A DNA stretch of 45,918 nt from Prosthecobacter sp. (lineage in GTDB: Bacteria; Verrucomicrobiota; Verrucomicrobiia; Verrucomicrobiales; Verrucomicrobiaceae). The position numbers and the translations under genes were made by a program. Numbering within the stretch: the stretch's first letter is position 1; every line of letters starts with the position of its first letter. The stretch is taken from positions 1 through 45,918 of the forward strand of contig JAURHS010000011.1 in NCBI GenBank assembly GCA_030833205.1. Direction: 5' to 3'. Of this stretch, positions 7,584-44,485 are shown piece after piece. The notes beneath the pieces were generated by a model that did not search any database, was not told where the DNA came from, and saw only the letters and a program-made list of their open reading frames with translations.

Positions 7584-7585
7584 AG

Positions 7586-9304: not shown

Positions 9305-9391
9305 TGACGAGGCAGGAGACCGCAGTTGCGGCATCGTCCCAACGCTGCGCGGCCCCAAATCTCTCGGCTTTTTCAACGGCGACGCCCTGCC

Positions 9392-16227: not shown

Positions 16228-16313
16228 ATCGCTGCCTGCCTTGTGGTGTGCGGCGCCACAGGCGCTGTGCTTTGCGTCGCGGACTTGAAGCCGCTTTATC
16301 CTGCTTGCGTGCC

Positions 16314-19620: not shown

Positions 19621-21066
19621 TCAGCGGGAGGGCTCGGTGCGTTGTGCCTTGGCCGCTGCCTTCCTGCCACCGCGTTTGCCCGAACCCGAAGTTGGCAGGG
19701 CCTCTTCAATGGGGAAGTTGGCAGCGAGTCCCGCCTTGACCTTTTGGTGCGCAGGCTCACTGGCAAGGTTGGTCCATTCCATGGGATCGGTTTGGTGATC
19801 GTAAAGCTCCTCGCTGCCATCAGCATAGCGGATGTAGCGCCAGCGCCCATCGCGGGCGGCGTGATTGCCGCGGCCATGGCTGCAGATGGCCACCTCCTGC
19901 CAGGCGGCGCTTGGGTCCTTGAGGAGGGGCAACAGGCTGCGGCCCTTGACCTGTGGCGGTGTGGGCAGCTTGGCCAACTCGCAAAGCGTGGGATAGACAT
20001 GCGTGTAATCCACGGGAGCGCTGCAACGGCTGTTGGGCTTGGTGATGCCTGGGGCGGCGATGGCAAAGCTGGTGCGCGTGGTTTCCTCCCAGAGCGCGAA
20101 TTTGCGCCAGTGCTGCTTTTCGCCCAAGGCCCAGCCATGATCTGTCCACCACACGACGATGGTCTTGTCGCGGCGTGGGCTGGCATCCAGCCCCTCCATG
20201 AGTCGTCCCACTTGGTCATCCAAGAAGGAGATGGCCGCCAGATAGCCCTGCACGGCCTGCTTCCATTGGCCTGCGGCCAGCACCTTGGCGTGATCGCCCT
20301 CGGGCTTGGCCATCGCGACTCCTGCGGCTGGGATGTCCTGCAGATCCTCTGCCATGACCTCGGGGAGTTGAATGGACTCCAGGGGAAAGCGCGCAAAATA
20401 CTCGGCGGGCACATGCCAGGGCAGGTGGGGTTTGACATAACCCACGGCAAGAAACAGGGGTTGATCCTGCGGGGCCTGCTGCAGTTGCTCGATGGCCCAG
20501 GTGGTGAGCTTGTGGTCGGCCATGTCGCTGGGCTGGCAGTTCAGGGCGCCCCAATCGAAGTGGTCCTGCTTGAGGCCGTTTAAATTGTGGACGGCGGCGT
20601 GGGTGGATGGAAACAAGCCCTTCCATTGGGTCCAGCTGTCCTTGCGGCCCTCACTGCTGAAGCTGTGGTAGATCTTGCCGCCGCCAAGGGTGCGGTAGCC
20701 TTGGGCCAGGAAGTGGCGGTTCAAGGTCTGCACGCCCTTGAGCACGCCCTGAGCCGGATCGCCATTGGTGTAAATGCCCGTGGTCCAGGGCCGCAGGCCG
20801 CTCATCAGCGCCGCGCGCGAGGGATTGCAGGCTGGCGCCGCGCAATGCGCGTTGGTGAAGGCCGTGCCGCGTGCCACCAAGCGGTCGATGTGGGGTGTCT
20901 TGGCCTGAGGGTGGCCGCCCAAGTGTCCAGTCCAGTCGTTGAGGTCATCCACCGCAATGAACAGCACATCGGGGCGGTTTGATGCAGCTGGGCTGATGAT
21001 TGCTGATGCCAAAAGCGATGCGCAAACAAGCAGGCAGGAGCGGAGGCGGCGGTTCAAGACGATCAT
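19621..21066 (-). CDS. Secreted iduronate-2-sulfatase-like Cys-type sulfatase
   Basis: From the ATG at 21066 the protein has 481 residues and an immediate signal peptide (LRSCLLVCASLLASAIISPA). ATGs at 21099 and 21195 would add Arg/Lys-rich residues. RPDVLFIAVDDLNDWTGHLG followed by GHPQAKTPHIDRL is the characteristic start of the iduronate-2-sulfatase branch. D40 and D41 bind the metal and CNPSR at 80-84 is the formylglycine site. TIVVWWTDHGWALGEKQHW supplies the distal Asp-His ligands, and GGGKIYH near residue 123 is also conserved in this branch. The C-terminal ~30 residues are a basic Gly/Lys/Arg/Ala tail. The gene begins 76 bp after the stop of the giant haemagglutinin-like gene, and no terminator is evident between them. 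The substrate is likely a sulfated uronan or similar glycan, inferred from the family only. Confidence 0.93.
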   Translation of the reverse strand: MIVLNRRLRSCLLVCASLLASAIISPAASNRPDVLFIAVDDLNDWTGHLGGHPQAKTPHIDRLVARGTAFTNAHCAAPACNPSRAALMSGLRPWTTGIYTNGDPAQGVLKGVQTLNRHFLAQGYRTLGGGKIYHSFSSEGRKDSWTQWKGLFPSTHAAVHNLNGLKQDHFDWGALNCQPSDMADHKLTTWAIEQLQQAPQDQPLFLAVGYVKPHLPWHVPAEYFARFPLESIQLPEVMAEDLQDIPAAGVAMAKPEGDHAKVLAAGQWKQAVQGYLAAISFLDDQVGRLMEGLDASPRRDKTIVVWWTDHGWALGEKQHWRKFALWEETTRTSFAIAAPGITKPNSRCSAPVDYTHVYPTLCELAKLPTPPQVKGRSLLPLLKDPSAAWQEVAICSHGRGNHAARDGRWRYIRYADGSEELYDHQTDPMEWTNLASEPAHQKVKAGLAANFPIEEALPTSGSGKRGGRKAAAKAQRTEPSR

Positions 21067-21142
21067 GGGCAGGCATGGCAACGGCAGCAAGGTCGCCATC
21101 TTGCAGGCAGGCCTCGCTGGCGATTGGCGAAGTCTGGTTGCC

Positions 21143-24100
21143 CTAGGTGCCCGGCGCTTTGCGCTTGCGCTCGTCTTCCTCCGCCTCGCCTTCACCGCCG
21201 CCGTAGCCGAGGACCTCCACGCTCATCAGCGAGATGCCACCCTCAGTCTGAGCGGCAACGCTCTGCTGTTCCTTGCCCCCGCTTGGCCGAGCGGCACTGG
21301 CATTGCCTGCGGCGGCTGCGGCATTCGAGGAGTTGGCCACGCTGGAGACGCTGATTGCCGGGGCAGAGGGAGCGGCAGCCGATCCGGATGCCGTTCCCCC
21401 GACGCTGATGTTGTTGCTGTTGAGGACCACGCTGGCGGCAATGTTGAGATTGCCGGTGGCGCGAATGCCGGCATCACCGGCATCCACGGTTCCGTTGGGG
21501 GCGATGAGATCCACATTGCCGGGGGCAATGCCAGCGACGGAGGCCAGGACGCCAATGCCACCACCGGTGGCGAGGCCGGCGAGGTCGGTTTTGACATCCG
21601 CACTCTGCGGATCAATGAGCACCCGTGTTGGAGGAGCAGACTGCACCGTTTTTGAGGAACTGCCCGCAGCAATGTTGCCGAACGAGGACCAGAGAATCTC
21701 ATCGCCTCCCCGCAGCGTGAAGATTCGCGCGATGCCAATGTCTATATCGTTGCGGGCGAAGATATTGATGCCGCCACCACCCTCAGTGATGATTCCCGGC
21801 GGAGCAAGAGAGGTGCCCAGCAGCGCTGAGGCCAGCGTCAAACCACCGCCTGGGGCCAGGATGTCAATGCTGCCGCCGCTTCTGCTGCGGATGTCTCGCG
21901 CCTGCGTGCTGATGTTGCCCTGCCAGTCCTGCCCTGGAAAGAGGCTTTCAATCGCCGCAAATCCATCCGCATAGCTTCCGCCCTTGGCCGCCTGTTCCCT
22001 CCCAGCGGTGCGCAGAACAATGGCAAAGAGATCGAGACAAGCCTTCTGACGCTCAACGGGATCAAGCGCATTGAACTCGGCGGCAGTATCCACATTGCTG
22101 TTGGATTTTGAGGCGTAGAGGCGCAGGTACTCCTCCGCCCTGGATCCCTGCAGGATGTCCGTGACAAAGTCCTCGATGGTCAGACGGCTGTTGCCAATGC
22201 TGCCGGCTGCCCCGATCCCTGCCGCCAAAATCAGGTCGGCACCCTGAAAGGGCAGGCCAGGATTTCTTCCGTTGCCAATGCTGGTGATGCCAGCGCCGGT
22301 TCCGTCGCTGTTGTTTCCACCGAGACCGAGATCAAGATGGCGGCCGGCGAGCACCTGCAGTTGCCCCGGGCCGCTGATTTGCAGGTCACCGCTAAGCGGG
22401 TCTGCTCCAACATTGAGAAGATTGGCGCCGCTTTGAGCCTGGGTGCGCAGTGCAGAGTTGGCGTCGTAAAGCAGGATGTCCCGGCCTGAGCTGACGACGC
22501 TGAGATCCGTGCTGCGATTGTTCTGAAGATAGAGGGAGACATCGCGAATGTCCCGGCCTGCGCTGATTTGGGAGAAGTGAGCTGAGAAAAGCTCCAGCCC
22601 GCTGAGATCTCCAGTGTTGGCCCTGATCTGGAGGGGTTGGTCATGGTTGAGGTGCAACAACCCTGGGGCATGCAGCGCCTGCCTGGCCTGCAGGACTGCG
22701 GCTGCGCCAATGGTGGATCCTGTCTCGCGCAGGTTCGCTTCCAGAAACAACAGAAAGTTGTCACCTGAAACGCTGGCCCTCGAGGGGCTCAATCCGGCAA
22801 TGCTTTGAAAGGCGAAGGGATTGCTGATTCCCGGAATGTTGCGCGGATCAGCATCGGAAACGGTGATGCGGCTACTGCCCCATGCGGCCACGCTCTGAGC
22901 GTTGAGGCTTGTTCTGCCGTTGGGTTGCAGGGCGTTGATGGACCCCTCGGCAAACAGGTTGAGTCGCCCCTGAGGTGAGGGGGAAAGAATGATTGAGCCC
23001 ACCAGATTGAGGTCGCCGCCCAAGGCCTGAAGCGCCAGACTCGGGGAGGTCAATTGGCTGACCGTGCCAAATGAATCCACCTTGGTTTCATTCAGGCGCA
23101 GCCAGGGATGGTAATAGGATGCCGTGCCGGGATTCTGGAAGTTGTAGACCAACTGGGTCTGCAGCCAGGCCTGAAGAATGGGGATGGCGCCGCCTCCGCC
23201 AATGGTAGGCAAAGTGGTGGCCGCGCGCAGAGTGATGGACCCGGTGATGGAGGTCGCATCCAGCAAGGCCGTTTCCGCATAGGTATTGAAGTAGCTCTTG
23301 TACCAAAAACTGTTGTTGTAGCCGCCGGGAAGCAAAAAGGGATTGGAGGCAGGAGCGATGAGGATGGAGCTGCGCGCCGTCAGTTCCACTGACGCCTTGC
23401 CAACAAAGAAGGTGGTTGGCAACCAGGTTTCCGCCGCCAGCGGCCCTGCATCAGCAAGATTGGTCAGGGAAGGGGATCTTGTGGCATTGCTGAGCACCGC
23501 TCCGCCAACCCTTGCCTTGGCTTGACCCCTCTCCACATAGAATACGCCGGCGTCCAGGTGGCGTCCACTCGTCAAGCGAAGGTTGCCACCGCCAAGTTCG
23601 ACGAGGTTTCCACTGCGATCCAGGCGCGCGTTGGTGGGGATCACCGCGTCCACATTGCGAAGGTCTCTTCCGGCGCTCAGCGTCACATCGCCGCCGCCCA
23701 GCGCGCCGACCCCCTGAAAGAAATTGCTGAAGTCCACCCACCATGTGGTTGTGGCCAGGTCTCCAAAACGCGCGCTGGCGAAGGCGCCCGTCATGGGGTC
23801 GACATAGCCGCGTCGGTAAAGCCAGTTCATCGGCAGTTGGCGCGAGGAATCCGGGACCAATTCATCGGCGGCGTTGCGGGTGAGTCGTTGGATGTCCCGT
23901 CCGGCTTCAATTCTCACATCGCCACCGGAGAGGCTGTACTGCGGGCTGTGGGCTGGGGTTTGTTGAATTGGGCCGAGGCTGTTGCTGCCTCCGGCGAAGC
24001 TGATCACCGGCAGGTCGAATTGGCCGCCAAGGGTCGGGTCACTGACCTGGGTTCCGGCTGTGTAAATGCCGGCAAAGAGGTTGAGCAGATTGATGTCGGC

Positions 24101-27100
24101 GCCGGTTTGGATATCAATGCTGCCTGAGCCGGTGCGAATAACCTGATGGAATCCTTGGATGGCCACACTGGTGCGCGCGTTGTTGCCCAGATTGGAGGCA
24201 ATCTCATTGGCGTCACCGGCGTTGCGACCGAGCATGAGTGAGCCGACAGCACCCACCACGCTGGCACGGTTGACGGAAGTGAAGTCGCTGCCGGCGCTGA
24301 GGTGATAGGACCAACTCTCGGCGAGGTCTGGCAGCAGGGCATTGTTGGTCAGCAGCCCTGCATTGTAGGCGGCCGAACTGAACCCATCGCTAAGAGACTC
24401 GTAGAAGGTCAGATTGCCGCTGGCCCTCAGGGTCAGGACCCCTGGGCTCATGCGACTGCCGAAGCGCTGCGAGGAAAGGTCCCATGCGCTGCTTGTTGGA
24501 CCGGCGAGGGGGCTGCCGAGCTGGAGATCGCCGCCCCGGTTGATGATTTCGATGCCCGGCACAATCAGAAGATCATTGGCAGCGAGCCCACTGCCCCCAC
24601 TCAACAGCCTGCTGCTGATGGCAGCCTCATGACTCATGAAGCTTGAGGCATCGGCCTGTGCCTGGACGCGGACGCTGTTGCTGATGTGGCCTGCACCGGC
24701 GAGTTCGGTGATTCGATACCCCTCGGCTGTGATCAGTGCAGCGCCGATCACCGATCCCGCCAGGGGGCGGATCAGCAAATCATTGCCGACGGCGTTTTGA
24801 GGGGCTCGCAGATGCAAGGTGCCGGAGTATTGACCAAGCGCCGTGGGAGCGGAGAGTCTCAAGTCGATCAGGCTCCCCGATGCGATGTTGATCTCTCCCC
24901 CCAGACGCCCGGAGGTTTCCAGCGCGATGGAACCACTGCGACCGTTGGCCCTGGTCTGCATTGAGGTTGCCAGAAGTTGGCTTCCGGCCTGCAGGGTCAA
25001 CGAGCCTGCGGCCATCAGTCTGATATCGCCTGCGCTGTGTCCGGAAACTTCAATGAGTCCACTGACGAGGATGGAGCCATTGTCGGCGCTGAGGCTGAAG
25101 TTCGAAACGCGGGTCTCCCCATTGATGAGGACATTGCCTTGGCGAACACGCAGAGTGCGGTCGCCAGTGAAGGCCTCAGGGCCCAGCTCTTGGTTCAAGG
25201 ACAAGATCTCCGGCAGTTGCTGCACATCAATGCGCAGACTGGCAGCGTGATCCGCAAGAATGGTCGCCTCGGCCAGACTCATGCTCCCGGCTGGGGTTTG
25301 GAGATCCAGCAGGCCGCCAGTGGCCCCTTCTGGAGCGCGCAGGCTGATGCTGCCGCTGGCAACGAGGTTGCCCTGGGCGGCGCGCAGCAGCAGTTGGCCG
25401 CCGTCAATTCTTTTGGATTGGGTGCTGGTTCCGGCTTGGATGCCGTCGAGATTGATCCGGCCTCCGATGGACAGGTTGCCTGCATTGGCGATGAGACTGA
25501 GTTGCCCGCCGGGCAGAGTCATGGCGCCGTCATAGGTGAGGCTGGCTCCGGCAAGGCTGAGGCTGACGCCAAGACCGCTGGCTTGAGCCTGTGCGTTGCC
25601 GCCATTGATTTGCAGATGGCCGCCGCTGACGATGCCATTTTGGGTCGCGCTGAGTGCCCGAAGCTGCGGGGCATCAATCTGAAGCCCGCTGCTCACGGTG
25701 AGCAACCCAGTGCCGCTGAAAAGAAGCTCCTGCGAGAGGCTCATCTCAACAGCGTTGAATCGGCTGAGGCGCAGATCATTGGAGGCCATCTCGAGCCGTT
25801 GCGCCTCGAAGATCAGATTGCCTGCAGAGGTTGGTCCCGATCCAGAAATTGGGGCGCCGTTGTTGGGGTTGCCGATTTGGATTGTTTTTGCGCTGAAGGT
25901 CAGGCTCCCTGAGGACAGATTCATGCCGCGAATGTCAGCCGCTCCCAGTCGCAGGGATTGCAGTTGCTCGCTCCCAATCTGACCGGCGCCATAAGTATCC
26001 ATCCTGCTGTAACTCAATAGGGCGAGTGACTTCGCCTGTCCGAGGGCATTGAGCGCTGCGGGGCCCAGCCTCAGGGCACTGGATGCGGCTGGATTGAGCG
26101 TTTCGTCAACGATGAGTTCGATGGCCCCGCTGCTCAGGGTCAGGTGGTTTCCAGTGAGAGTGGCAGAGGGGTCGAGGAGGAACTGATTGGTGCTGTCGAG
26201 AATGATGGAATTGCCATGGAGCGTGGCGTTGGCGGCCACTTGCAGTCTGGCGGGTCCGGTGCCCGCAGTCACAGACTGCCGTTGGATGCTGGCTTGTGCA
26301 TCGCTGGAGATTCGAATCAGAGCCCCCGAGCCACTGCCTGAAGCGTCGCTGCTGCCAAGGGTCAGCCGCTGGGAATTGCCGGAAAGAGCGCCCTGCTGGT
26401 TGAGCAGGGCATCGCTCCTGATCTCGATGCGCTGATTGGCAACAAGGATGATCTCAGGGCCGCCCAGGGCCTCTGCAGTGCCCGTGTAGGGGTTGAAGTT
26501 GTCGAGAACGATCTGTCCGGTTTTGACACTGACTTGGGCTTCGGACGAGTCGCTGCTTCTTGCGCCCCCGATGAGGAGGCTGCCCACCCCGGACTGCGTC
26601 AGGGTCGAGGAAATCAGCAACATTTGTCCGCTCGAGGCGATGCTGTCAGTGTGGCCAATGAGGATGTCCAGTGGGCTGCTGATGTCCAACATGCCATCGC
26701 GTCCTGCCGTGGAATTGGGTTTGGCCGTGATGCTGCCAAGCATGGCCATGGATTGGGTGGCGGCAAGCATCATGCGGCCGGAGTCCTGGGGAAGCCGGGG
26801 CACCGCCTCACCGCGTGAAGTGGCAATGTCTGCGAAGAACTCATTCCCGCCGAGGAGGTCATAACGCGCGCGCTGAGCCAGCGTTCCTGCTGAAGCAATT
26901 TCGAAGGACTGACGCAGCCGTGGCGCGCTACGGTTGGAATTCAAACCGTTGTAAATGCTGCCTGAGGTCAGGCTGGCTCCATCGGGGAGCAGTTGCGCAC
27001 TGACGGGGATTTCGCTTTGCGGGGTAATCAGGAAGGCTCCGGGAAGCAGGGCATAGCGAGCAGGAAGAAGCGTGTAGGTCCCCGCCCGAAGTCCACTGCC

Positions 27101-30100
27101 AGCGCCCAGAGTGATGCGGTCACCGACTTGAATCCTGGGATTGTCGTATCCCTGGTCGCCCCGAAGCAGAGTGGCTTGCGCTCCACGGTTGAAAAGACCC
27201 CAGGCGGCAATTTCGCTGTCGTAGCCGGGAAGGACCGCAAAGAGTTGTTCGCTGGCCAGGAGGTCACGGGTGCCGTTGAGGCCGCTGACAAAGCGGTAGG
27301 CCATGAGATTGCCCCCACCGCGCAGATCGGTGGTGGCTCCCAATTCCATACTCACGGATTGGGCGGAAAGGTTGATGAGCTTGGTTGTCGGTCCGTTCTT
27401 GGTGATGTCCACTCCGTTGGGATGAATCCAGGAGCGACCATCACTGCTGACACCAAGGGGCATGATCATGGCACGGTTGCCATCCATCGCGGACACCGAG
27501 GTGAGGCTGCCGGCTCCCAGTTCCAGCCGTTGAGTCACCGGAATTTGCGCCTTGTCGCCGGCGATCAGATCCACGGGGCGTTGTCCCTCGCCGTTCCAGC
27601 CCAACAGGATTTGCCCCAAGGGAGCGCGCAACACGCCATCGCTGCGAATCGCAGAGGCATAGAGCGCAAGCGTGCCTCCCGCACTCAGGGGAAGACGGCG
27701 TTGTCCATTGCCCTGCACCGTGATGCTGCCCTGCTCAGTGGCTGATGGATCGAAGACACTCAGCGCGAAACTGCTGCCTGAGAGCGGGTAGATTTGCGTC
27801 GCGTTGAGGGTCAGGTGGCCCGCCATGTTGAGGCTGCCCTGACCGCGCAAATCTCCGCCGAGGGCACTTAGGGTTGCGTTGCCAATGCCCTGAAGTGACA
27901 AGTTCCCAACATCCACATGGCGGGCAATGACCTCGAGGCTGCCGCCGCCGCTGGTTGGGGCGAAGAAGAAGGGCTGCACATCCTGCAGGAATGGGTTGGC
28001 GACATCGAGGGGCGACAGCGGCCCCTCAAAAACCTTGCCCAAGGCGACATGCGCGGCCTGCAGTCGCACGGATGCGTCTGCCTGCAGGACACCGCCGCTG
28101 GCCACGCTCATGCTACCCACAGCCTGGAGGCTGACCTCTCCCTCAAAGGACACATTGCCACCGAGCTTGAGGTGGTCGAAACCACCGCCAACAAAAGCCT
28201 CTGCCGCAAAGTAGCCACGGCCCGAGGGCTGGGCCGGTGCGTTGCCAATGGCCTGAGCTGGGTTGTTGAAAAATGGGCCGGATGAAGCGCTTTGGCTGAT
28301 GCTGAGATTCAAGTCGTCAGGTTCAGGAGTGATCCCACTTGGATAAAAACGCCCTGAGGAAACCTCAAGGGAACCGCCTTCAGCCTCTTGTCCCCCGGCC
28401 GCCGCGCGCAGCGTCGCGCTGCTGTGCAGCATCTGTCCTCCATGAAGGACGATGCCGCCGCCGTCGCTTTGCAGCGTGGTGATGATCGAAGCCTGCGCAT
28501 TGGCGGTGGCGCTGATCCCTCCTGAGGTCGGCAGGGATGACATGCCAAGATTCAAGGATTGCCCCTGGGGATTGAGGCCCAACTCCGCAGGAAGAATCTC
28601 CATCCTGCGTGAGATGCCGCTGGCATCGAGAACTGCACCCTGCTCGGCCACAAGGTTTCCGCTGACTCGGATGCTGCCTCCGTTGAGCAATCTCCCCAAC
28701 TCCCGACCGAATGGATCCGGAGTGGCGAGAAAACTTCCAGCCACATCCAAGCGGGCCGTTTGAGCCAGGTAGACCGTGACGAAGGCACTTGGTGGGTTGG
28801 GATCAAGAGAGGGAAGGCGGTCGGCTGCCTTGAGGTTGATGCTCCCCCCTGAGGCGATGAGGCTGCCGCGCACATCCAGAGTGTCCGCCTGCAGGTTGAT
28901 GTTGCCGAGGGCTCCGGCATTGACTTCTGCAGTTGAGCGGATGAGAAGATCGCCTCGTTCGATCAACAGGCGCGTGAACTCATCGGTAGCACCCTGCGCC
29001 CCCAGACTGAGGTGATAGGGCTGACGCAGACCCGCTGGCGGTAGGATTTCGCGCATCGGACCCCCGACATCACCGGGAGTATAAAGGTAGCTACGCACCT
29101 CTGGGCGCAACATGACTCCGTCGTTGATCACGAGGTCAGCAGAGTCGTCCGACCCTTGTGATCCGACGGCGCTGAGCGAGTGACTGGCAAATCCTCCGCG
29201 ACTGAAAAAATCAGGCGTCAGCGACAGTGCCCCTGCCACTGGGTCGTTGCTGACCGCCAGCCGCGGAGCCTGCAACACCAAGCTTCCGCCGAGGGCCTGA
29301 ACGCCGGCGATGCCGCGGAGCGAACCGCCAAGGGTCATGCCACCGCCCAACACCCAGCTCATGCTGAGAACCGCGCCTGATTTCAAGGTGATGGCCCCGG
29401 CGGCACCATAGCGCACACTGCCACTGGCGGCCATTTGTGCGCCACCGCTGACATCAATCAGGCTGCCTTCCTGAAGCCTGATCTCCCAGCCCTTGAGAAG
29501 AACTTCACCGCCCTCCAGGCGATAAGGCGACAGGTGCGATCCAAGGCGCTCGTCAATGAGATCACCGCGAGTCAGAATCGCACCTTGAGCGCCAACGCTG
29601 ATGAGGCCTCTGTCGCTGTTGGCCGTCAGGGTGTAGGGATCGGCACTTTGGCGCACCTGATCGGCCAGGTAGGGTGATAGGTTATACGCACGAAGGGCGA
29701 TTCGGCCACCCGCGCTCTGAATGGTGCCCTCGATGTGAATGTTGGCAGCATCCACCTCCAAGGCTCCATGCACTCCCAGGTCCAAGGTCTGACCCGAAGC
29801 AAGACTGACCTCGCCCTCGCGGTTGTTGATCGCAAGTCTGCCAAAGCCCGCCTGCCGTAGGCTCTGAGGGGAGAGGACAATGGATTGGCGATGTTCTGAA
29901 GACAGGCCCATGGGTTTGCCAAGAGCATCGAGTGCGAATTGAGGCGCAGCTGGCAGGGAGGATGAGCCCTGAAAGAGGATCCGGGCCGAATAGGGGGATT
30001 GGGCCAAATATTGAGGCCCCACATCGCGCTGATTGGAGAGGTTCAGTGAGAGTTGACTGGCATCGGCCTGGAGACTGAGTTGGCGTTCGCCATTCACGAC

Positions 30101-32284: not shown

Positions 32285-32289
32285 AAGTT

Positions 32290-33015
32290 TTATTTGATGG
32301 CGGCTTTTTGAGCCTCGGCAGGGGACTGCGTCTGCTCTTTGGAGTTGGGGGCTGCGGCAGCCGAAACGGGTGGATTTACCCTCGCCTCCTTGAGCCTGTT
32401 GCCGTAGTCATTGATGTAGTTCTGGAACTTCACCCGCATGGATCCGACAAAGGGTTCGCGGGCCATGAGGGCAGTGCCCAGCCCAAACTTGCTGTAGCGT
32501 TCAAGAATCTCCTGGCCGAGGGCCAGCAATTCGCGGTTCTTGCGCTCGTGCTGCTGGCTGAGGCGCTCGCACTGCAGGGCCTTCTCCATGGCCTCGACTC
32601 GTTCGGTCTCCTTGGTTTGGGCGATGGACTTTGCCTGCTCAAAGCCCTGCTTCCACTTTTCAAGCGCCTCGGCGTATTGTTGGAGTGACTTCTCCTTTTG
32701 CGCGAGTTTTGTCTCCAGATCGTTCAGGCGCTTCTGGGTTTGGTCGCGGTAATCCTTGGACTGGGCAAGCTGCGCCTTGAGCTCCTTGGCCGTTGCTTCC
32801 TGGCGATTGGTCATTTCCTTGAGGGCAGCCTCGGCCTGCAACTGCGCGGCCTGGGCGTTGACCATTTGGGTCTCAGCATCGGTGATGCGCTGGGCGAGCT
32901 TCTTCATCGCATCGCGCATGCGCTGCAGCATGGGGTCCTGGGCTTGTTGGGCATGCAGGGTGGGGCTGGCCAGAATGGCGATCAACAACAGGGCAGGGGA
33001 AATGAAGCGTGACAT
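32290..33015 (-). CDS. Exported coiled-coil protein, function unknown
   Basis: This 241-residue protein is not assigned to any named family by me. Residues 1-22 form a signal peptide (LLLIAILASPTLHA). Residues ~30-185 are almost entirely heptad-like, rich in Gln, Lys, Glu and Ala (AQAAQLQAEAALKEMTNRQE, LNDLETKLAQKEKSLQQY), predicting a long alpha-helical coiled coil. The C-terminus contains a short folded segment (FVGSMRVKFQNYINDYGNRL) and a Pro/Ala/Gln tail. It lies 5 bp downstream of the porin and 5 bp upstream of the haemagglutinin-like gene. That position suggests a periplasmic chaperone, spacer or length-determining factor for the exoprotein, or a structural link to the porin. This role is inference from position only. 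Confidence 0.8.
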   Translation of the reverse strand: MSRFISPALLLIAILASPTLHAQQAQDPMLQRMRDAMKKLAQRITDAETQMVNAQAAQLQAEAALKEMTNRQEATAKELKAQLAQSKDYRDQTQKRLNDLETKLAQKEKSLQQYAEALEKWKQGFEQAKSIAQTKETERVEAMEKALQCERLSQQHERKNRELLALGQEILERYSKFGLGTALMAREPFVGSMRVKFQNYINDYGNRLKEARVNPPVSAAAAPNSKEQTQSPAEAQKAAIK

Positions 33016-33020
33016 GATGG

Positions 33021-34898
33021 TCAGAATTTTGCGGTGAGATCAAACAGCAGCAGATCCTGGCTTAGCGGTGGGCCGGACAGTTCGCTGATGCTGGCCCAAC
33101 GGGCGCCAAGCTTTACATGGGGCGAAAGACCGATGGCCCCGCCGATTGAAAACCCTGAGAAATTTGTGCCGCCACCAAAGACGCTGTCGGTAAAGGCATC
33201 GGGCATGGCATCGGACTGAACATGGCGGAAATCCAAAAAGACCTGCCAATCCCCGCGGCGCTCAAACTTTGGTTTGCCGAACTCGCTGCGCAGCATGAAG
33301 GCCTTGTTGCCGCCTTCGTAGTCGCCAAGAACCGCGTCACTTGGGGATGGGCCTCGATTGTTGATGGCCGTCGAGTTGATTTGGTCCTGATCCCAGGCGA
33401 GATTCTGCACATAGTTGGCGATGAAGCTCAGGCGGTAGGGTTCCCAGAGGTCAACATCCAGGCTGCCGTAAAGGTCGAGGTTGCGAAACGCCGAGGCCAG
33501 ACCGAAGTATTGAAACTGGTTCGTGGTGCCATTGCCATTGGCAGGGTCAGGCCGGATGTCGCGCAGGGCCCGATAAGTGTTGCCGCGTTGGGCAAAGGTG
33601 GGTCTGGTGTGGTCTGTGTCCCCGATGTCTTGATCGGAGAGTGGTACCATGGGTGAGGAGAGCAACCCTTCCATGTTGATGAACTCATGGTAGGCGGCGC
33701 TGAGCTTCGCGCTGACCTTGTCAGCGATGGGCAGTTGCATCCCAAGTTGCGCGCCCAGCAGGTAGCGGTCCCGACTCTCGAACTTGGCAGGTTGGTTGGT
33801 CCCGAAGTTGAGGTCAGTGTTGTAGATTGGGAAGGCTCCTGCGCTGCCAAAAACAACGGCATCGCCAACCCTGCGACGACCCTTGAGTGAGAGGCCATCG
33901 AAACCAAGGTCATTGTCCCACATCATCTCGGTGGACAGGAAGGGGTTGGCGTGACGACCGGCGAAGAGTTGGAATTGGTCCTCCAGGGCGTTGCCCACCT
34001 CGTAACGCATGTAGGCGCGGTCCAGCCAGATGCTGAATTTGCTGAAATTGCCACCCTGACCTGCCGCACCGCCCAGCGTTTGATTTTGGGTGACCGGAGA
34101 GCTGTTGTCACCGGTGGCGAGGCCCCCGCCCATGAACCAGCCTTCGCTCAGTGCCGCCTCAATGCCAACTCTCGCACGCAATTGAAAGCGGTAGCGATCC
34201 TGGTCCACATTCTGTTGCGGCGCGTAATTCAGTCCCCGCAGATCGTAGGGGTGGCCATTGTTGATCTGGTTGAAGTTGGGGAATGCACCCGTGTTGTCAT
34301 TGCCTTGGCCCGCGAGCAGATCGGCCCGCGCCCGCATCCGCACATCACCATAGACCTGATAACGCTCGCTCTCTTCCTCTGGAACCTTGAGCCATTGCTC
34401 GGCCTTCGCCTTGTCGAGAACCTCGTTGCGGATTTCCTCGCGCAGCTCCTGCTTCACATTTTCCGGCACATAGGCCACCCGCACCTCATCCTCGGCGGCC
34501 TGTCGTAGTTCGGCGTCTTCGAGCAGTTGCGTCTTGGCAAGCTCAGCCTCCGCCTCGGCCTGTGTGATCAGGGCCTGCGCCTCATCCGCACTGAGCAGGC
34601 CCTTGGCGACCATGAGCTTGAGTAGATTGAGAGTCACGCTCGTTGCCGGCGAGGGCATGGCTGCATTGGCTCTGCCTGCCAGAGGCTTGGGCAGTTGGTC
34701 CACGGGTGGCTCCCCGAGCAGTAGGTTGGTCTCGGGGCTGGATTGAGGTTGGCTGGAGGAGGGCTGTGGCAGGGTGGGCTCGCGCAGGGCTGGTGGCCTT
34801 GGCCCGGAAGCAGGTTGCTGCGCCATCAGGCTGTCGCAGTGACAAAGCGTGGGGCAGAGCACGCAGAACAGCGATTGGAGAAGGGAAGAAAACTTCAT
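33021..34898 (-). CDS. Putative outer-membrane porin with helical N-terminal region
   Basis: The ATG at 34898 (after a GTG at 34904) gives 625 residues with a signal peptide. Residues ~30-90 are Pro/Ser/Gln-rich. Residues ~95-165 form an acidic helix (LLSADEAQALITQAEAEAEL; VKQELREEIRNEVLDKAKAE), possibly a coiled-coil periplasmic module. The remainder alternates aromatic and polar residues as in a 'putative porin' beta-barrel: YQVYGDVRMRARADLLAG, YRFQLRARVGIEAALSEGWF, FSIWLDRAYMRYEVG, FAGRHANPFLSTEMMWDNDL, LSFIANYVQNLAWDQDQ. It ends in DLLLFDLTAKF, with the terminal Phe recognised by the BAM machinery. It lies directly downstream of tonB (20-bp gap). It may be a solute channel or a partner of the TonB module; selectivity cannot be read from the sequence. 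Confidence 0.88.
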   Translation of the reverse strand: MKFSSLLQSLFCVLCPTLCHCDSLMAQQPASGPRPPALREPTLPQPSSSQPQSSPETNLLLGEPPVDQLPKPLAGRANAAMPSPATSVTLNLLKLMVAKGLLSADEAQALITQAEAEAELAKTQLLEDAELRQAAEDEVRVAYVPENVKQELREEIRNEVLDKAKAEQWLKVPEEESERYQVYGDVRMRARADLLAGQGNDNTGAFPNFNQINNGHPYDLRGLNYAPQQNVDQDRYRFQLRARVGIEAALSEGWFMGGGLATGDNSSPVTQNQTLGGAAGQGGNFSKFSIWLDRAYMRYEVGNALEDQFQLFAGRHANPFLSTEMMWDNDLGFDGLSLKGRRRVGDAVVFGSAGAFPIYNTDLNFGTNQPAKFESRDRYLLGAQLGMQLPIADKVSAKLSAAYHEFINMEGLLSSPMVPLSDQDIGDTDHTRPTFAQRGNTYRALRDIRPDPANGNGTTNQFQYFGLASAFRNLDLYGSLDVDLWEPYRLSFIANYVQNLAWDQDQINSTAINNRGPSPSDAVLGDYEGGNKAFMLRSEFGKPKFERRGDWQVFLDFRHVQSDAMPDAFTDSVFGGGTNFSGFSIGGAIGLSPHVKLGARWASISELSGPPLSQDLLLFDLTAKF

Positions 34899-34918
34899 GA
34901 ACACAACGATGATGATGC

Positions 34919-35653
34919 CTAGGGAGCAGAGGCGAGGCCGCCGGATTTGCGCGCGCCGAGGCGCATCACGATGGGCATGGGCATGTCCGGTGGTGGCGGG
35001 TTGTCGAGAATGAGTCCGGTGAGGACCTCGCTTTTCAGGGCGCTGTCCACCGCAGGGTCACCGCTGCTGCCACTGAGGCTTGCCCGCGTGATGCGGCCTG
35101 AGCTGTCAGCCCAGATTCGGGCGGTGAGATTGAAAGTGGCGCTTTTGGTTTTGGGATGGCTGCGCATCGCGGCGGCGATGGACTTTTGGATCTTGCTGGC
35201 GAACAAGCCGTACTTGCCACCGTTGCCGCGGCCCCCGACGCGGCCTGTTCCCGAGCCCTGACCTGGCTTGTAGGCCCCCAAACCAGCCATGCCTGGTCCG
35301 TTGCCTACCAAATTTGTTGAGATCGGCGGAGGTTCATCTGGCGGTGGTTCGTCAGGCTTTGGTTCCTCTTCCACCTTCTCCTGGGCAACCATCTCCTCTT
35401 CCTTGGGCGGCTCGGGCTCCTGAGTCTTTGGAGGCGGGGGAGGGGGCGGCGGTGGTGGTGGAGGCGGTGGTGGCGCGATGCTGACCATCATCATCGGCGG
35501 TGGACGATGGGAGGTCGTGGTCTTTTTGCCGGCGCCGAGGTTCATCAGTGCCACGGCCACAAGGGCGGCACTCAGCAGGATCAATTTGCCTCGGTGACGA
35601 CGCAGGAATCCATCCTCCTCTTCCTCATTCATGGGCTGTGTTTTCATCATCAT
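34919..35653 (-). CDS. TonB-like energy transducer with 15-proline run
   Basis: This 244-residue protein (three consecutive ATGs at 35653, 35650 and 35647) starts 7 bp after the exbD stop. It has a short acidic/basic cytosolic N-terminus (MNEEEEDGFLRRHRGK), then one transmembrane segment (LILLSAALVAVALMNLGAG). The periplasmic part contains 15 consecutive prolines, then Glu/Pro/Lys repeats, the classical rigid TonB/TolA spacer. After a Gly-rich stretch (GVGGRGNGGKYG-like) comes a C-terminal domain, FASKIQKSIAAAMRSHP ... FNLTARIWADSSGRITRASL ... ALKSEVLTGL, which fits the TonB/TolA C-terminal fold (strand with 'DSSGRI', helix, final strand PIVMRLG). It should connect ExbB/ExbD to an outer-membrane client. 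No canonical TonB-dependent receptor is in the window, so the porin or the TpsB transporter are the candidate clients. Confidence 0.9.
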   Translation of the reverse strand: MMMKTQPMNEEEEDGFLRRHRGKLILLSAALVAVALMNLGAGKKTTTSHRPPPMMMVSIAPPPPPPPPPPPPPPPKTQEPEPPKEEEMVAQEKVEEEPKPDEPPPDEPPPISTNLVGNGPGMAGLGAYKPGQGSGTGRVGGRGNGGKYGLFASKIQKSIAAAMRSHPKTKSATFNLTARIWADSSGRITRASLSGSSGDPAVDSALKSEVLTGLILDNPPPPDMPMPIVMRLGARKSGGLASAP

Positions 35654-35660
35654 GCTGGGG

Positions 35661-36065
35661 TTATTTGTTTGGCTTGGTGGCCAATCCGATTTGCTCAAAG
35701 CCGGTGCGTCCCAGGACATCGAGCACATCCATGATCAGTTGATACTGAGTGCCGCTGTCGCCGCGCACAACGACTGGCGCATCCGGCAACGAGGACTTCA
35801 CCGCAGTCAGCTTGGACTCCAAATCCGCGATTGAGGCGACCGGGCTGGCATTGAGCTTGAGGTTGCCGGCACTGTCCACGGTGATGGCCTGAATCTTGGG
35901 TGCGTCCATCTTTTTGGCGGCCGCATTGCTGGCCTTGGGTAGGTTGACCTTGACCCCCTGAACGCCTGCCGTGGTCATGATGATGAAGATCAGCAGCAGC
36001 ACCAGGTAGAGGTCCACCATGGGCGTGACATTGATGTCGTCGTAACTCTTGTTGTCGGCCTGCAT
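35661..36065 (-). CDS. exbD: ExbD/TolR biopolymer transport protein
   Basis: This protein has 134 residues, standard for ExbD. The N-terminus is cytosolic (MQADNKSYDDIN) and the single transmembrane helix contains the essential proton-carrying Asp in VTPMVDLYLVLLLIFIIMTT (D18). The periplasmic domain contains VKVNLPKASNAAAK, then the two characteristic beta-alpha units AITVDSAGNLKLNASPV and PVVVRGDSGTQYQLIMDVLD, and ends TGFEQIGLATKP. It sits 3 bp after the exbB-like gene and 7 bp before the TonB-like gene, so the three are almost certainly translated from one RNA and form the inner-membrane proton-driven motor. Confidence 0.96.
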   Translation of the reverse strand: MQADNKSYDDINVTPMVDLYLVLLLIFIIMTTAGVQGVKVNLPKASNAAAKKMDAPKIQAITVDSAGNLKLNASPVASIADLESKLTAVKSSLPDAPVVVRGDSGTQYQLIMDVLDVLGRTGFEQIGLATKPNK

Positions 36066-36068
36066 GGT

Positions 36069-37922
36069 TTAGGACTCCTTGTGATGTTCAGCCATCTTGG
36101 CGATGAACTCGTCGATGAAGGTCTCCATGCTGGAGACTGCCGTTTTGATGCGGGTACTCAGGTAGCTGTAGACAAAGAGGCATGGGATGGCGACGGCGAG
36201 CCCAGCCACTGTGGCCAACAGCGCACCAGCGATGCCCGGGGCAATGCTGTTGACCTCAACCTGACCGGATTTGGCGATCACGGCGAAGGTGATCATCACC
36301 CCAATCACTGTTCCGAGCAGGCCAAGGTAAGGGCCGCCTGCGATGCCGATGGTCAGAAACACAAGATTGCTGTTGAGGCGCTCCACCTCGCGCATCAGGC
36401 CCCCATGCATGGTGGCCTTGATGGCCTGAATGGAACGGCCCGAAAGGCCGCGCTTGGTTGTGGCGATCTCCGCTCCCTTCTCAGCGGTGCTGGCCTGCAC
36501 TCGTTTGGCAATCTCCGAGCTGCCGAGGTGGTAGATGCGGTAAAGCGGGGATTGTTTCATCAGGCGTAGGGATTTGCCCGTGAGAGTTCCCCCCATGCTC
36601 TGAATGCTCGCGTCGCTGTCCGAATCCAGCGCGGTGAGGTCTGAGGAAATGCTCTCCCAACGCCGCAGGAATTCCTTCGAGGACTTGTCCATGGCATTGA
36701 GGTACAAAAACTTGCCGACCGCAATCACCATGCCAACGACAGCCAGCAGGGCGCAGAGCACAATGACGACCCAGCCGTCAAAGGTCAGGTCCTTGGAGAT
36801 GTCCACAAGCAGGGTCAGGTGCTTGGCCAACTCGCTTTCCTCAGCATGGTCTGAAAGTTCCTCGGCGCCCAGAGTGATCAATTTTCCTGCTTCGGCTGAG
36901 CTGCCGTGGGCGATGGCTTCGAAGGCCACCCAAGACTCACCACGGGCCACCGTGGCAATTTTGAGTTCGTCGAATTCACCCAGCACCCCTGGTCTTCCCG
37001 CGACGGCGGATCCCAGAGTCAGCGGGGCCTGCACTTCACCCATGGTGGCATTGATGGCTCCGGCGGATTTTCCATCCACAAAGAGCTGGACCTTGCCCTC
37101 GGCAATCACCGTGGCGAAGTGGTGCCAGACCGCTGGCGTCAGCGGGGCGGTTGGGCTTGAGCGACTACCATTGGCCTCCACCCAGGGACCAGAGGAACTC
37201 AGGCCAACTGCCAATCCCTGATTGCCGCTCTTGCGCTCAAGGATGCTGCCCTCAGAGCCTGCGGTTGGTTTGAACCAAAAGCTAAGGGTCAACGCACCAT
37301 TCCAAGGGCCGCCCTGCGTCGCTGGCAGAGTCAGTGCTGCGCTGCCGGTGAGGCGAAGCCCAGAGCCCACGATCCCGGGGCCGCTGCTCGCTGTCCCTTC
37401 AAGATTGGCGCCGTCATTGATGCTGTTCCTGCTGAGCTTGGCGGCGTCGGCGAAATGAAACAGCGCAGTCGTTGCCGAGTCCACGCTGGCCTCGGCATCG
37501 GCGGCATCGGCGGCGTCAGTCACATTGCCGCTGTACATCCACAGGGTGACCTTGGCTCCTGGCTTGAGATCCGGTGCCTTGACCCAGACAAAGGCCTCAT
37601 TGAGCAGACCGTCCCACTTTTCGATGTGGTGGGGCAACAGCGTCTTTCCATCCTCCCCAAGAAAGCGCAGATCCGAGCCATCTTCCCGTGAGGCAAGAAA
37701 GTTGAAGTTGCCTTCGTGAAGCCGGATCAGCAGCAGCCCCGAGCGAACCTCTGCGCTGACGCTTTGGGAGACAGCGGCCGTGTCCACGACGATGGGTTTG
37801 CGGCTCGGCCACTTGGCATCCCACCATGGGGCCTTGGCCTCTTGGTCGTGTTCTGCAGCGTTCAGGTTGAGGCTGCCGAGCAGCAGACCGGAGAGCAATA
37901 AGGTTTGAAGGGTTCGGTTCAT
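36069..37922 (-). CDS. exbB: ExbB/TolQ proton channel fused to DUF2341 and LamG domains
   Basis: Starting at the ATG at 37922 gives 617 residues and a signal peptide (LQTLLLSGLLLGSLNLNAA). Residues ~30-125 resemble DUF2341 (WWDAKWPSRKPIVVDT; LLLIRLHEGNFNFLASREDG; VTLWMYSGN). Residues ~150-340 form a LamG/concanavalin-like jelly roll (ALTLSFWFKPTAGSEGSILE; WHHFATVIAEGKVQLFVDGK; LGEFDELKIATVARGESWV). A transmembrane helix (VVIVLCALLAVVGMVIAVG) follows, then the MotA/TolQ/ExbB channel with LVFLTIGIAGGPYLGLLGTV and GIAGALLATVAGLAVAIP. A normal ExbB is ~240 residues, so the ~380-residue N-terminal part is an extra periplasmic module on the motor, perhaps sensing or binding glycan. The gene starts 8 bp after the TpsB stop. 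No domain appears broken. Confidence 0.95.
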   Translation of the reverse strand: MNRTLQTLLLSGLLLGSLNLNAAEHDQEAKAPWWDAKWPSRKPIVVDTAAVSQSVSAEVRSGLLLIRLHEGNFNFLASREDGSDLRFLGEDGKTLLPHHIEKWDGLLNEAFVWVKAPDLKPGAKVTLWMYSGNVTDAADAADAEASVDSATTALFHFADAAKLSRNSINDGANLEGTASSGPGIVGSGLRLTGSAALTLPATQGGPWNGALTLSFWFKPTAGSEGSILERKSGNQGLAVGLSSSGPWVEANGSRSSPTAPLTPAVWHHFATVIAEGKVQLFVDGKSAGAINATMGEVQAPLTLGSAVAGRPGVLGEFDELKIATVARGESWVAFEAIAHGSSAEAGKLITLGAEELSDHAEESELAKHLTLLVDISKDLTFDGWVVIVLCALLAVVGMVIAVGKFLYLNAMDKSSKEFLRRWESISSDLTALDSDSDASIQSMGGTLTGKSLRLMKQSPLYRIYHLGSSEIAKRVQASTAEKGAEIATTKRGLSGRSIQAIKATMHGGLMREVERLNSNLVFLTIGIAGGPYLGLLGTVIGVMITFAVIAKSGQVEVNSIAPGIAGALLATVAGLAVAIPCLFVYSYLSTRIKTAVSSMETFIDEFIAKMAEHHKES

Positions 37923-37930
37923 GATCGAAG

Positions 37931-39544
37931 TCAAAAGTCAGCCCAGAGGCGGAAGCTCAGAAGAAGGTCTCCGGCCTGGGTCTCGTTCAGGTCGAGAAGG
38001 GGAATGCCAAGGTCTGCAATCGCCTGCCAATGCGAGCCTAGGCGAAGGCTTGAGCCGATGCCGAGGCTGGCAAGGCTCCATTGCCGTTGCTGCTGGGGGA
38101 GTGCCTTGTGAATGCCCAAAAGCGCGCCGTCGGCAAAGACATGAAATCGCCACTCCCTTGGGCTGGGAGTCCCATCGTCTTGTCTGGCATTGCCTGGCCC
38201 CAATAGTGATGGCGTGCGCAGTTCCAGAGTTGAACTCAACCCGACATCCCCGAGGGCCGCAGAAACCAGATATCCGCGCACGCTGTCGAGACCACCTGCA
38301 GAGAACTGCTCGTTGTTGATCAGTGCGTCATGGCTTGCCTGTCCTGCAATGCGAACAAAGCCCTGCCAGGCTCCAGGCAGATCCTGCAGGTGGTTGGCGT
38401 CGGCCTTGAGCGCGAGATAGCCGCCAGATGAGGCATAGCGTCGCGCATTGAAGTCACTGCGGCTTGCCATGCCGCGAAAAGCCCAGTTCAGGGCGATGTT
38501 GGCCTGGGTGAAGGATGCCTTGCGCGTGGCGGCTAGGCTGTAAGCCACATGCAATGGCCAGTAGGAGACTGGTGCACTGAGACGGTTTCCTGTCTCGCCA
38601 AGATTGAGCACCTGGCTGAAGTTTTTGTAATCAATGCCTGCGGAGATGCTGTGCATGAGGCCTTCCGCAGCGGGGAGTTGGTGGCTCAGATTCAAACCAA
38701 CCACCTCTCCCTGGCCAACCACCGCAGATCCTCCCAGTGTGTTGATGTTGCTGCTCTGCTTCATGCCAGAGAAAGTGAGCTCGCTTTTTTCCGAAATGGG
38801 CAGGGAGTAAAACCCTGAGTACACCTCACCATCGTCGAGACGCTCGGGAGCCACCTGGAAGCTCGCCCCCATGCTGTGACCCATCTGCCAGAGGTTGCTG
38901 TAGGAAATGCCCCCATTGATTCGGAGTGGGACGGTGTTTGGACTGTACCGGTTGTTGATTTCGAAGTTGCCGTGAAGCGGTGCCCGGTCCTCGACCTCAA
39001 GCTCAATGTCGAGAACCCCAGGGTCATCGCCGGGGTTGAGTTTGGGGGTGACCTTCAGGTCACTGCCTTGATTCAGGGCCACGATGTCGCGCTCGATGTC
39101 CTTGAAGTGCGGAGCCTTGCCTGGTGCGAGCGATGGTGCCCTCTTTGCGATTTCGCTGGGCAGATTCCATTTCGCCCCCCTGACCGAGAGCTTGCCAATG
39201 CTTGCCTCAGTCACCTCAAGTTTGATGATGCCACGGCGGCCACTCTGCTGTGGAACCGTCACAGTGACGGCCTGCCAGCCTCGGTCGTGGTAGCATTTTT
39301 CAAGGGCGGCTCTCGCCTCTTCGATGTCTTGGGCCCGGCGACCGGGTCCGAGGTGCGGATACACGGCCTTGGAGATTTCCAGCGAGCTGAGCAGGCGGTT
39401 GCCGCTGACCCGGTACTCCCTGATGAAGTAAAATGGCTCGGGGTTGTCTGGTGGTGTGGCCACTGGCACCGTCTGCCCCAGGGCCAGGCTGTGCAGAAGC
39501 AGGCCAATCACCAGGAGCGAAAGTTGTGGCGAGAGTCTCGACAT
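37931..39544 (-). CDS. TpsB/FhaC/ShlB-type outer-membrane transporter of two-partner secretion
   Basis: The ATG at 39544 gives 537 residues with signal peptide LSLLVIGLLLHSLALGQ. An ATG at 39565 and a TTG at 39589 are longer alternatives. Two POTRA domains follow: FIREYRVSGNRLLSSLEISK with ARAALEKCYHDRGWQAVTVT (~35-110), and IIKLEVTEASIGKLSVRGAK onward (~110-185). The ShlB-type 16-strand barrel includes HGNFEINNRYSPNTVPLRIN, SAGGLDSVRGYLVSA with the conserved VRGY lid-lock motif, WRFHVFADGALLG, and a terminal Phe (LLSFRLWADF). It is the first gene of the seven-gene operon whose last gene is the TpsA-like exoprotein. Two TonB-related differences stand out: the operon supplies its own Exb/TonB motor, whereas classical TpsB proteins are thought to need no energy input. 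Confidence 0.93.
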   Translation of the reverse strand: MSRLSPQLSLLVIGLLLHSLALGQTVPVATPPDNPEPFYFIREYRVSGNRLLSSLEISKAVYPHLGPGRRAQDIEEARAALEKCYHDRGWQAVTVTVPQQSGRRGIIKLEVTEASIGKLSVRGAKWNLPSEIAKRAPSLAPGKAPHFKDIERDIVALNQGSDLKVTPKLNPGDDPGVLDIELEVEDRAPLHGNFEINNRYSPNTVPLRINGGISYSNLWQMGHSMGASFQVAPERLDDGEVYSGFYSLPISEKSELTFSGMKQSSNINTLGGSAVVGQGEVVGLNLSHQLPAAEGLMHSISAGIDYKNFSQVLNLGETGNRLSAPVSYWPLHVAYSLAATRKASFTQANIALNWAFRGMASRSDFNARRYASSGGYLALKADANHLQDLPGAWQGFVRIAGQASHDALINNEQFSAGGLDSVRGYLVSAALGDVGLSSTLELRTPSLLGPGNARQDDGTPSPREWRFHVFADGALLGIHKALPQQQRQWSLASLGIGSSLRLGSHWQAIADLGIPLLDLNETQAGDLLLSFRLWADF

Positions 39545-39597
39545 GGAAGACAACTGCCCAGCCATGGGCGCTGGCAAGCCTCTGCTCAATCATTGAA

Positions 39598-39615
39598 AGG
39601 TGACGAATCTGTCGC
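39598..39615. promoter_or_regulatory. Second Pho-box-like 7-4-7 element before the TpsB operon
   Basis: AGGTGAC-GAAT-CTGTCGC reads as two 7-bp units with a 4-bp spacer, the geometry of the enterobacterial Pho box (CTGTCAT-AAAT-CTGTCAC). It matches that consensus at 12 of 18 positions but in the orientation opposite to the genes. It lies 54-71 bp before the TpsB ATG and 22 bp from the stronger shared dyad. I count it as supportive only. Confidence 0.35.
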
Positions 39616-39637
39616 ATGGTTCTTGGGTCTCCGTTTT

Positions 39638-39655
39638 GGTGAATTTTTCGTCACA
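39638..39655. promoter_or_regulatory. Shared 18-bp dyad upstream of the TpsB operon
   Basis: GGTGAATTTTTCGTCACA matches 15 of 18 positions of the element GGTGACTTTTTGGTCACC found before the PstS-like gene. Its near edge is 94 bp upstream of the TpsB ATG (39544), against 99 bp for the other copy. It sits between the terminator of the Calx-beta gene and the operon start, where a promoter must be. It can be read as a GGTGA/TCAC dyad or as a 7-4-7 Pho-box-like repeat (TGGTGAA-TTTT-TCGTCAC). Confidence 0.55.
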
Positions 39656-39674
39656 AAGCCAGGCTCCGACTCCC

Positions 39675-39712
39675 AAAAAAAAAGCCCCATGATCCCGGGG
39701 GATCATGGGGCT
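39675..39712 (-). terminator. Strong intrinsic terminator after the Calx-beta gene
   Basis: AGCCCCATGATCC (39683-39695) pairs perfectly with GGATCATGGGGCT (39700-39712) around a 4-base loop. On the minus strand the stem is followed by a run of nine T (the nine A at 39675-39683 on the plus strand). It lies 23 bp after the stop of the Calx-beta gene and ends the PstS-like/Calx-beta transcript, so the TpsB operon downstream needs its own promoter. Confidence 0.95.
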
Positions 39713-39735
39713 CGTGGGAGGGCCTCAATTTTCTT

Positions 39736-42906: not shown

Positions 42907-42953
42907 GAATGGTGAAGGGATGAGAGTTCTCGCGTTTGGAGGCAGAGAGGGGC

Positions 42954-44369: not shown

Positions 44370-44399
44370 GGCAGTAGGCAATGGTTTGTTTGTGGGTGT

Positions 44400-44459
44400 G
44401 GTCTCACTTGTTGGGATGAGACCTACCCATCCAAGCCTCATGTGGCGATGTGCCGCCAC
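44400..44459. repeat. Two inverted repeats in the leader of the PstS-like gene
   Basis: GGTCTCA (44400-44406) and TGAGACC (44417-44423) form a perfect 7-bp stem around 10 bases, 31-54 bp before the ATG. GTGGCG (44442-44447) and CGCCAC (44454-44459) form a second, 6-bp stem around 6 bases. Both lie between the shared dyad and the start codon. They may fold in the 5' untranslated RNA or be protein-binding sites, and neither has a T-run. Confidence 0.5.
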
Positions 44460-44467
44460 GGCTTGCG

Positions 44468-44485
44468 GGTGACTTTTTGGTCACC
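44468..44485. promoter_or_regulatory. 18-bp dyad / Pho-box-like element upstream of the PstS-like gene
   Basis: GGTGACTTTTTGGTCACC is a perfect 6-bp inverted repeat around 6 bases, 99 bp before the ATG of the PstS-like gene. It can also be read as two 7-bp units separated by four T (GGGTGAC-TTTT-TGGTCAC), the spacing of a Pho box. Fifteen of 18 positions recur before the TpsB operon at nearly the same distance from the start codon, which argues for a common regulator. The identity of that regulator (PhoB-like or other) is inference. Confidence 0.6.

Follow-up and report, generated by a model that had tools for sequence, protein, structure and literature searches.

Why does a two-partner secretion locus carry a complete Ton motor of its own? 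Textbooks present two-partner secretion as protein export that needs no energy source, and TonB-dependent receptors as the partners of Ton motors. The operon considered here lies on the minus strand of a 45,918-nucleotide stretch of DNA from Prosthecobacter sp. (contig JAURHS010000011.1, referred to as the window) and encodes, in this order, the transporter TpsB, the motor components ExbB, ExbD and a TonB-like protein, a porin, a coiled-coil protein and a giant exoprotein, TpsA. The set is inherited as a block in two phyla and combines a dedicated Ton motor with only TpsB and the porin as outer-membrane partners, a case in which both textbook rules come together. If the motor indeed energises a protein other than a receptor, the operon would represent a two-partner system driven by the proton motive force and equipped with its own phosphate-binding protein.

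The order of the seven genes, as determined from open reading frames and Pfam matches, agrees with that given in an initial annotation of this DNA, and the genes are separated by about 3–20 bp. Pfam backs all assignments but two: the coiled-coil protein is without a match, and TonB scores 1 bit under the cut-off. An overlap between the reading frames of exbD and tonB would require tonB to start further upstream; its likely ATG (position 35656) comes after the exbD stop. The initial annotation had taken the genes for a single transcription unit, and this is supported by two observations. Promoter-like sites occur at chance level (2 found versus 2.5 expected in a scan of positions 31900–45918), and the strongest intrinsic terminator of the strand (39682–39713, minus strand, a 14-bp stem followed by a T run) is located directly upstream of tpsB. 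The transcription unit therefore starts at tpsB. The terminator divides it from an upstream pair of genes, g21 and g20, and a common transcript with this pair was rejected for that reason.

A survey of gene order across phyla, which the initial annotation had suggested as a check, bore out its impression that the set is too cohesive to be a product of chance. Scanning 84,980 species genomes with the porin as anchor yielded 80 loci, nearly all from Verrucomicrobiota, 41 of which had enough room on both sides for an order count. All seven genes were found in order at 37 of these 41 loci, again nearly all from Verrucomicrobiota. The other four resemble cases of open-reading-frame calling or of duplicate genes, with tpsA missing in one of them (L106). 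Searching with the window proteins retrieved the full order in seven other genomes of the phylum; the nearest named relative, as judged by the porin, is Prosthecobacter sp. Bin_70R (62% identity). Carriers that can be cultured include Haloferula sp. BvORR071, Brevifollis gellanilyticus, isolate IMCC26134 and Methylosinus sp. C49. In about half of the loci a gap of ~900 bp separates the coiled-coil gene from tpsA, and at those examined (L031, L035, L137) a gene for a PpiC-type isomerase is located in this gap or in an equivalent place. ExbB with its laminin-G-like (LamG) domain and its partners is also found on plasmid records from Methylosinus, Burkholderia, Cupriavidus, Variovorax, Aquabacterium, Klebsiella and Methylomagnum. 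The first five of these genera carry the set, and the gene order recurs on plasmids of alpha-, beta- and gammaproteobacteria.

Co-occurrence was analyzed in 388 evenly drawn Verrucomicrobiota genomes and in 229 Pseudomonadota genomes. Of the former, 13 have DUF3739 (a domain of TpsA) and 12 have full-length Porin_5, these 12 being common to both (Fisher 6e-22); the thirteenth DUF3739 genome is a weak match. Porin_5 matches with E > 1e-40, seen in ~97 Verrucomicrobiota genomes, were excluded from the count, as most of them cover the barrel only in part. The distance from the DUF2341-containing ExbB to the porin was 3.4–5.0 kb in all ten Verrucomicrobiota genomes with both genes on one contig. 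In the Pseudomonadota sample full-length Porin_5 was found in six genomes and LamG-ExbB in those same six, mostly about 3 kb apart. The module is rare (about 3%) and is absent from the three sampled congeners of the window organism and from the other sampled members of its family. The seven-gene set is inherited as a block, all or none. The motor is a dedicated one, as the initial annotation had assumed, in that the full-length LamG-ExbB subtype accompanies this porin and TpsB family.

Individual loci deviate in detail. Tandem duplicates of exbD are present inside the operon at L031, L044, L063 and L123, and one Rhizobiales genome (L100) has three copies each of the module porin, LamG-ExbB and TpsB. 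On a Klebsiella pneumoniae plasmid (L122, 3584–5250) tpsB consists of two adjacent open reading frames with no annotated gene and may be broken. L104 is labelled Bacteroidetes; the locus looks Verrucomicrobial, possibly as a result of a mislabelled bin. A Methylomagnum motor apparently devoid of TpsB was rejected as an exception, since the plasmid also encodes TpsB, at a distance of 27 kb, and a fused TpsB-ExbB of Burkholderia arboris turned out to be an open-reading-frame artefact with TpsB in another frame.

The gene tpsB (37931–39544) encodes two POTRA domains and a ShlB/FhaC-type barrel (Pfam: ShlB 7e-13, POTRA_2 3e-11). Its AlphaFold model has a predicted local distance difference test score (pLDDT) of 87, and the closest folds in the PDB are CdiB (6wim) and FhaC (4ql0). 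In the model, only the signal helix precedes POTRA1, which starts at residue 43, with about 15 residues between signal peptide and POTRA1; in compact members of the family, only about 8–15 residues connect the two. As judged by the model and the N-termini of the family, the N-terminal plug helix H1 and the long linker are absent from TpsB. Both features, the linker with ~30 residues, are common in type Vb transporters, H1 not being obligatory. The stretch QTVPVAT at the N-terminus of the window protein resembles a TonB box, but is not conserved in the family and was discarded as a candidate. TpsA (21143–32284) consists of 3713 residues (~390 kDa) with a two-partner secretion (TPS) domain at residues 135–330 (2e-19), a DUF3739 domain at residues 3526–3635 (5e-27) and two cysteines. 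With this TPS domain and the POTRA domains and ShlB barrel of TpsB, the two proteins form a type Vb pair.

ExbB (36069–37922; MotA_ExbB 4e-27, Laminin_G_3 9e-16, DUF2341 4e-13) starts with a signal peptide, followed by DUF2341 and LamG domains, both predicted to be periplasmic, and the MotA/TolQ/ExbB channel. Family members align over their full length with 41–47% identity (alignment A1). The window genome contains six other genes of the ExbB family. ExbD (35661–36065; Pfam 1e-25) has its transmembrane aspartate in NVTPMVDLYLVLLLIF. Both proteins are well above the Pfam cut-offs. The TonB-like protein (34919–35656, start approximate) reaches 21.0 bits against a cut-off of 22 bits for TonB_2, and 9e-06 (tolA_full) and 0.0012 (tonB_Cterm) in NCBIfam. 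Its assignment is backed by a single transmembrane segment, a proline-rich linker, a TonB_2/TolA-like C-terminal domain and the conserved position of the gene. The coiled-coil protein (32290–33015), secreted or periplasmic, takes the position of PA0697 in Pseudomonas aeruginosa. Its C-terminus contains the conserved motif EILxRYExxxLGxAlxAREPFxGxTRVKLEN (alignment A8; 44 relatives including Methylosinus, Burkholderia and Klebsiella).

The porin (33021–34904) matches Porin_5 over the full Pfam model (4e-168). Its structure was predicted (pLDDT 77) as a helical periplasmic N-terminal region and a barrel of 16 long strands. In the PDB, the model comes closest to OmpM1 of Veillonella (13% identity, query-normalised template modelling score 0.37) and to general porins. 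No plug domain was seen in the model. TonB-dependent receptors have a 22-strand barrel and an N-terminal plug, and on the basis of model and fold search we rejected the idea that the porin is such a receptor. Residues 141–147, within a low-confidence periplasmic linker of the model, form a segment VxVxY[IV]P that is conserved in both phyla: Val143 in 83 of 92 sequences (isoleucine in the rest), Tyr145 in 88 and Pro147 in 89. We infer that this segment is a candidate contact for TonB.

A link to phosphate, which the initial annotation overlooked, is provided by g21 (42954–44369, minus strand) on the far side of the terminator. A profile of its family (A4, 20 members) matches solved PstS structures in the PDB with an E-value of 1.4e-07, including the anion-binding loop R-x-x-S-G-T (RdtdsGtR); among the single sequences, one of 20 matches a Pfam family (PBP_like_2, 0.0034). 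At the profile level the family is related to PstS, and it can be regarded as a diverged, putative phosphate-type binder. About 30 loci have a relative of g21 on the upstream side of tpsB. The profile matches exactly the five module genomes among 175 sampled genomes. Nine copies were located in seven module genomes; eight of them are no more than a few kb from tpsA or the operon, and the remaining one sits at a contig end. Such a dedicated PstS-like protein suggests a role of the module in nutrient scavenging. Further phosphate-related genes were observed in relatives: phoU adjoins the operon at L032/L059 (one genome) and L064, OmpR/PhoB-type regulators are found beside it at several loci, and in Methylomagnum phoX and another alkaline phosphatase gene are close to the motor genes. 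An Escherichia coli-type Pho-box upstream of tpsB was tried and dismissed, scores across 66 upstream regions being slightly above those of shuffles (9.23 versus 8.88); with the same E. coli consensus, none was found above chance at g21 of the window. Solitary satellite tpsA genes, apart from tpsB and each accompanied by a separate PstS-like gene, occur at L027, L134 and L136 (G334, G216). As a side reading, one exporter machine may serve several exoproteins.

That the motor energises either the plug-less porin, via VxVxY[IV]P, or the H1-less type Vb transporter, and not a TonB-dependent receptor, has in our estimate a little less than an even chance. Based on gene content, structure predictions and literature we tentatively propose, as our best reading, that the operon is a Pdt-type (PUMA3-regulon) module that acts in scavenging at the cell surface in connection with phosphate limitation. 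TpsB would export TpsA to the cell surface, where it could act as a long adhesive or capture filament. The coiled-coil protein, in many relatives together with PpiC, probably keeps TpsA unfolded in the periplasm. ExbB-ExbD-TonB would use the proton motive force to drive an outer-membrane protein encoded in the operon, most likely the porin, contacted at its VxVxY[IV]P segment, such that phosphate or a phosphorylated compound may enter. In Verrucomicrobiota, the dedicated PstS-like protein would then bind the incoming compound. Control by phosphate starvation is taken from the P. aeruginosa literature (PMC4971064, PMC7035377), and the HxuCBA system is a precedent for two-partner secretion coupled to Ton-driven uptake (PMC4873976). 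The link to phosphate limitation, extended by the module-specific PstS-like family in Verrucomicrobiota, suggests a concrete function that can be tested.

Several points weigh against this scavenging mechanism. The modeled porin lacks a plug, and to our knowledge no publication describes a 16-strand porin energised by TonB. The g21 protein of the window, searched alone, matches no Pfam family, its PstS-like membership being a profile-level result. The best Pho-box upstream of the window tpsB is at chance level (9 of 14 matches versus 8.95 expected, E. coli consensus only). In a zebrafish infection assay, which does not cover nutrition, single mutants of P. aeruginosa in tpsA, tpsB, tonB and PA0696 had no phenotype (PMC2729926).

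The strongest alternative, possible though on balance unlikely, is energised two-partner secretion. Here the Ton motor would act on TpsB or on an assembly of TpsA, TpsB and the coiled-coil protein, gating the pore or pulling or releasing TpsA, with the porin as an accessory. The presence of tpsB and the motor in one operon in two phyla is consistent with this, as is the Methylomagnum TpsB encoded on the motor's record, though 27 kb off. The missing H1 plug and periplasmic linker point in the same direction, given that the ~30-residue linker of FhaC is needed for secretion (PMC5422565), and Ton-dependent protein export has a precedent in Oar/PopC (PMC6434023). However, type Vb export has been reconstituted and is regarded as independent of an external energy supply (PMC5422565), and the short TpsB N-terminus offers no conserved stretch resembling a TonB box. 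Nor does energised secretion account for a porin and a PstS-like family that cannot be separated from the set. We favor uptake for this reason: the porin always belongs to the set and the PstS-like family is specific to it, which gives uptake somewhat more circumstantial support. In the literature we found no experiment on which outer-membrane protein the motor touches.

It is improbable that, under phosphate stress, the motor works for the cell's other TonB-dependent receptors and that co-regulation alone holds the cluster together. A single starvation-induced promoter for nearly all cluster genes of P. aeruginosa (PMC4971064) would fit such a scenario, but gene order is kept across phyla despite different regulators. 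Moreover, in the Pseudomonadota sample full-length LamG-ExbB occurs only where this porin does, in Verrucomicrobiota it neighbors the porin wherever the contig covers both, and the six other ExbB-family genes of the window genome could serve receptors. Even less probable is an envelope tether or signaling device, in which the helical region of the porin and the lectin-like domain of ExbB sense or clamp cell wall or exopolysaccharide to trigger export or release of TpsA: the best PDB match of the porin is an outer-membrane attachment porin (OmpM1), the LamG domain is predicted to be periplasmic and neighbors with PEP-CTERM tails hint at matrix-associated proteins, but the likeness to OmpM1 is weak and Pfam recognizes no peptidoglycan-binding domain in the porin.

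The gene g20 (39736–42906, minus strand) encodes a secreted protein with an N-terminal DxLLGFRAT domain and Calx-beta repeats, both in the window and in relatives. Within the sample, full-length matches are restricted to genomes with the module, where most of them adjoin the operon, and short relatives carry PEP-CTERM tails. Matches of the corresponding profile (A9, LGFRA) in 61 genomes were rejected as true relatives, since nearly all are matches to the PEP-CTERM tail. Two genes downstream of tpsA, on the same strand, a LysR regulator is encoded (18653–19540). LysR genes are also present near the end of the P. aeruginosa and Klebsiella clusters, which may be a coincidence. A fusion of a multi-span membrane protein with a spermidine-synthase-like domain is encoded at 16248–18590. 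The regions 263–9376, 11814–16227 and 19621–21195 contain three sulfatases, two cytochrome-DUF1549-DUF1553/DUF1501 pairs and beta-helix proteins; such flanking clusters are typical polysaccharide-degradation clusters of Planctomycetes and Verrucomicrobiota.

How does the operon compare with known systems? The combination of genes is itself not new. The cluster pdtB-exbB2-exbD2-tonB4-PA0696-PA0697 of P. aeruginosa, though little studied, has been described since 2009 and is regulated by PhoB and VreI (PMC2729926, PMC4971064, PMC7035377). The VreI regulon comprises tpsB/pdtB (PA0692), exbB2, exbD2, tonB4, a putative porin (PA0696), PA0697, the YbjN-like PA0698, the PpiC protein PA0699 and tpsA/pdtA (PA0690) (PMC2729926, PMC7035377). 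The promoter PphdA alone was reported to transcribe phdA-pdtB-exbB2D2-tonB4-PA0696-PA0701 (PMC4971064). The cluster is induced by phosphate starvation, and transcription of the regulon requires PhoB; its Ton part was called "still uncharacterized" in 2020 (PMC7035377). The window shares with this Pdt/PUMA3-regulon locus (PA0690–PA0701) the order TpsB-ExbB-ExbD-TonB-porin-PA0697-position gene and the giant TpsA nearby. In the window, however, the operon ends with tpsA, whereas tpsA of P. aeruginosa has its own promoter. The window also lacks the vreAIR sigma/anti-sigma, phdA, YbjN and PpiC genes and adds the PstS-like and LGFRA families upstream. As no genes for a sigma factor, FecR or a VreA-like protein were found among the window proteins examined, we regard the operon as a Verrucomicrobial variant of the Pdt/PUMA3-type cluster and not as a plain member.

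The homology to P. aeruginosa is based on published annotation and on bridging plasmid loci of proteobacteria. On plasmid pMSC49a of Methylosinus sp. C49 (NZ_AP022333.1), the genes for TpsB, ExbB, ExbD, TonB, porin, coiled-coil protein and TpsA are on one strand with TpsA last, as in the window. The locus differs from the window by PpiC and YbjN genes before TpsA and by upstream genes for a sigma factor, FecR and a secretin/TonB-N-domain protein, as in PUMA3. By gene content it bridges the P. aeruginosa and the Verrucomicrobial versions.

HxuCBA of Haemophilus influenzae likewise couples a two-partner pair with Ton-driven nutrient uptake (PMC4873976, PMC5422565), but includes a TonB-dependent receptor, HxuC, and is a three-gene operon without dedicated ExbBD/TonB and without a porin. 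The Oar/Ton system of Myxococcus xanthus, which exports PopC, also employs a Ton motor in protein export (PMC6434023). At the outer membrane its partner is a TonB-dependent transporter instead of a TpsB, and the exported protein is a protease rather than a giant filament. FhaB/FhaC and CdiA/CdiB share with the window pair the TPS domain, the POTRA domains and the 16-strand-type barrel, in line with the fold matches of TpsB. Compared to such classical two-partner secretion, the operon adds motor, porin and coiled-coil protein. New in this variant are the PstS-like family found only with the module, a TpsB without plug helix and long linker, and a predicted 16-strand porin with the VxVxY[IV]P segment.

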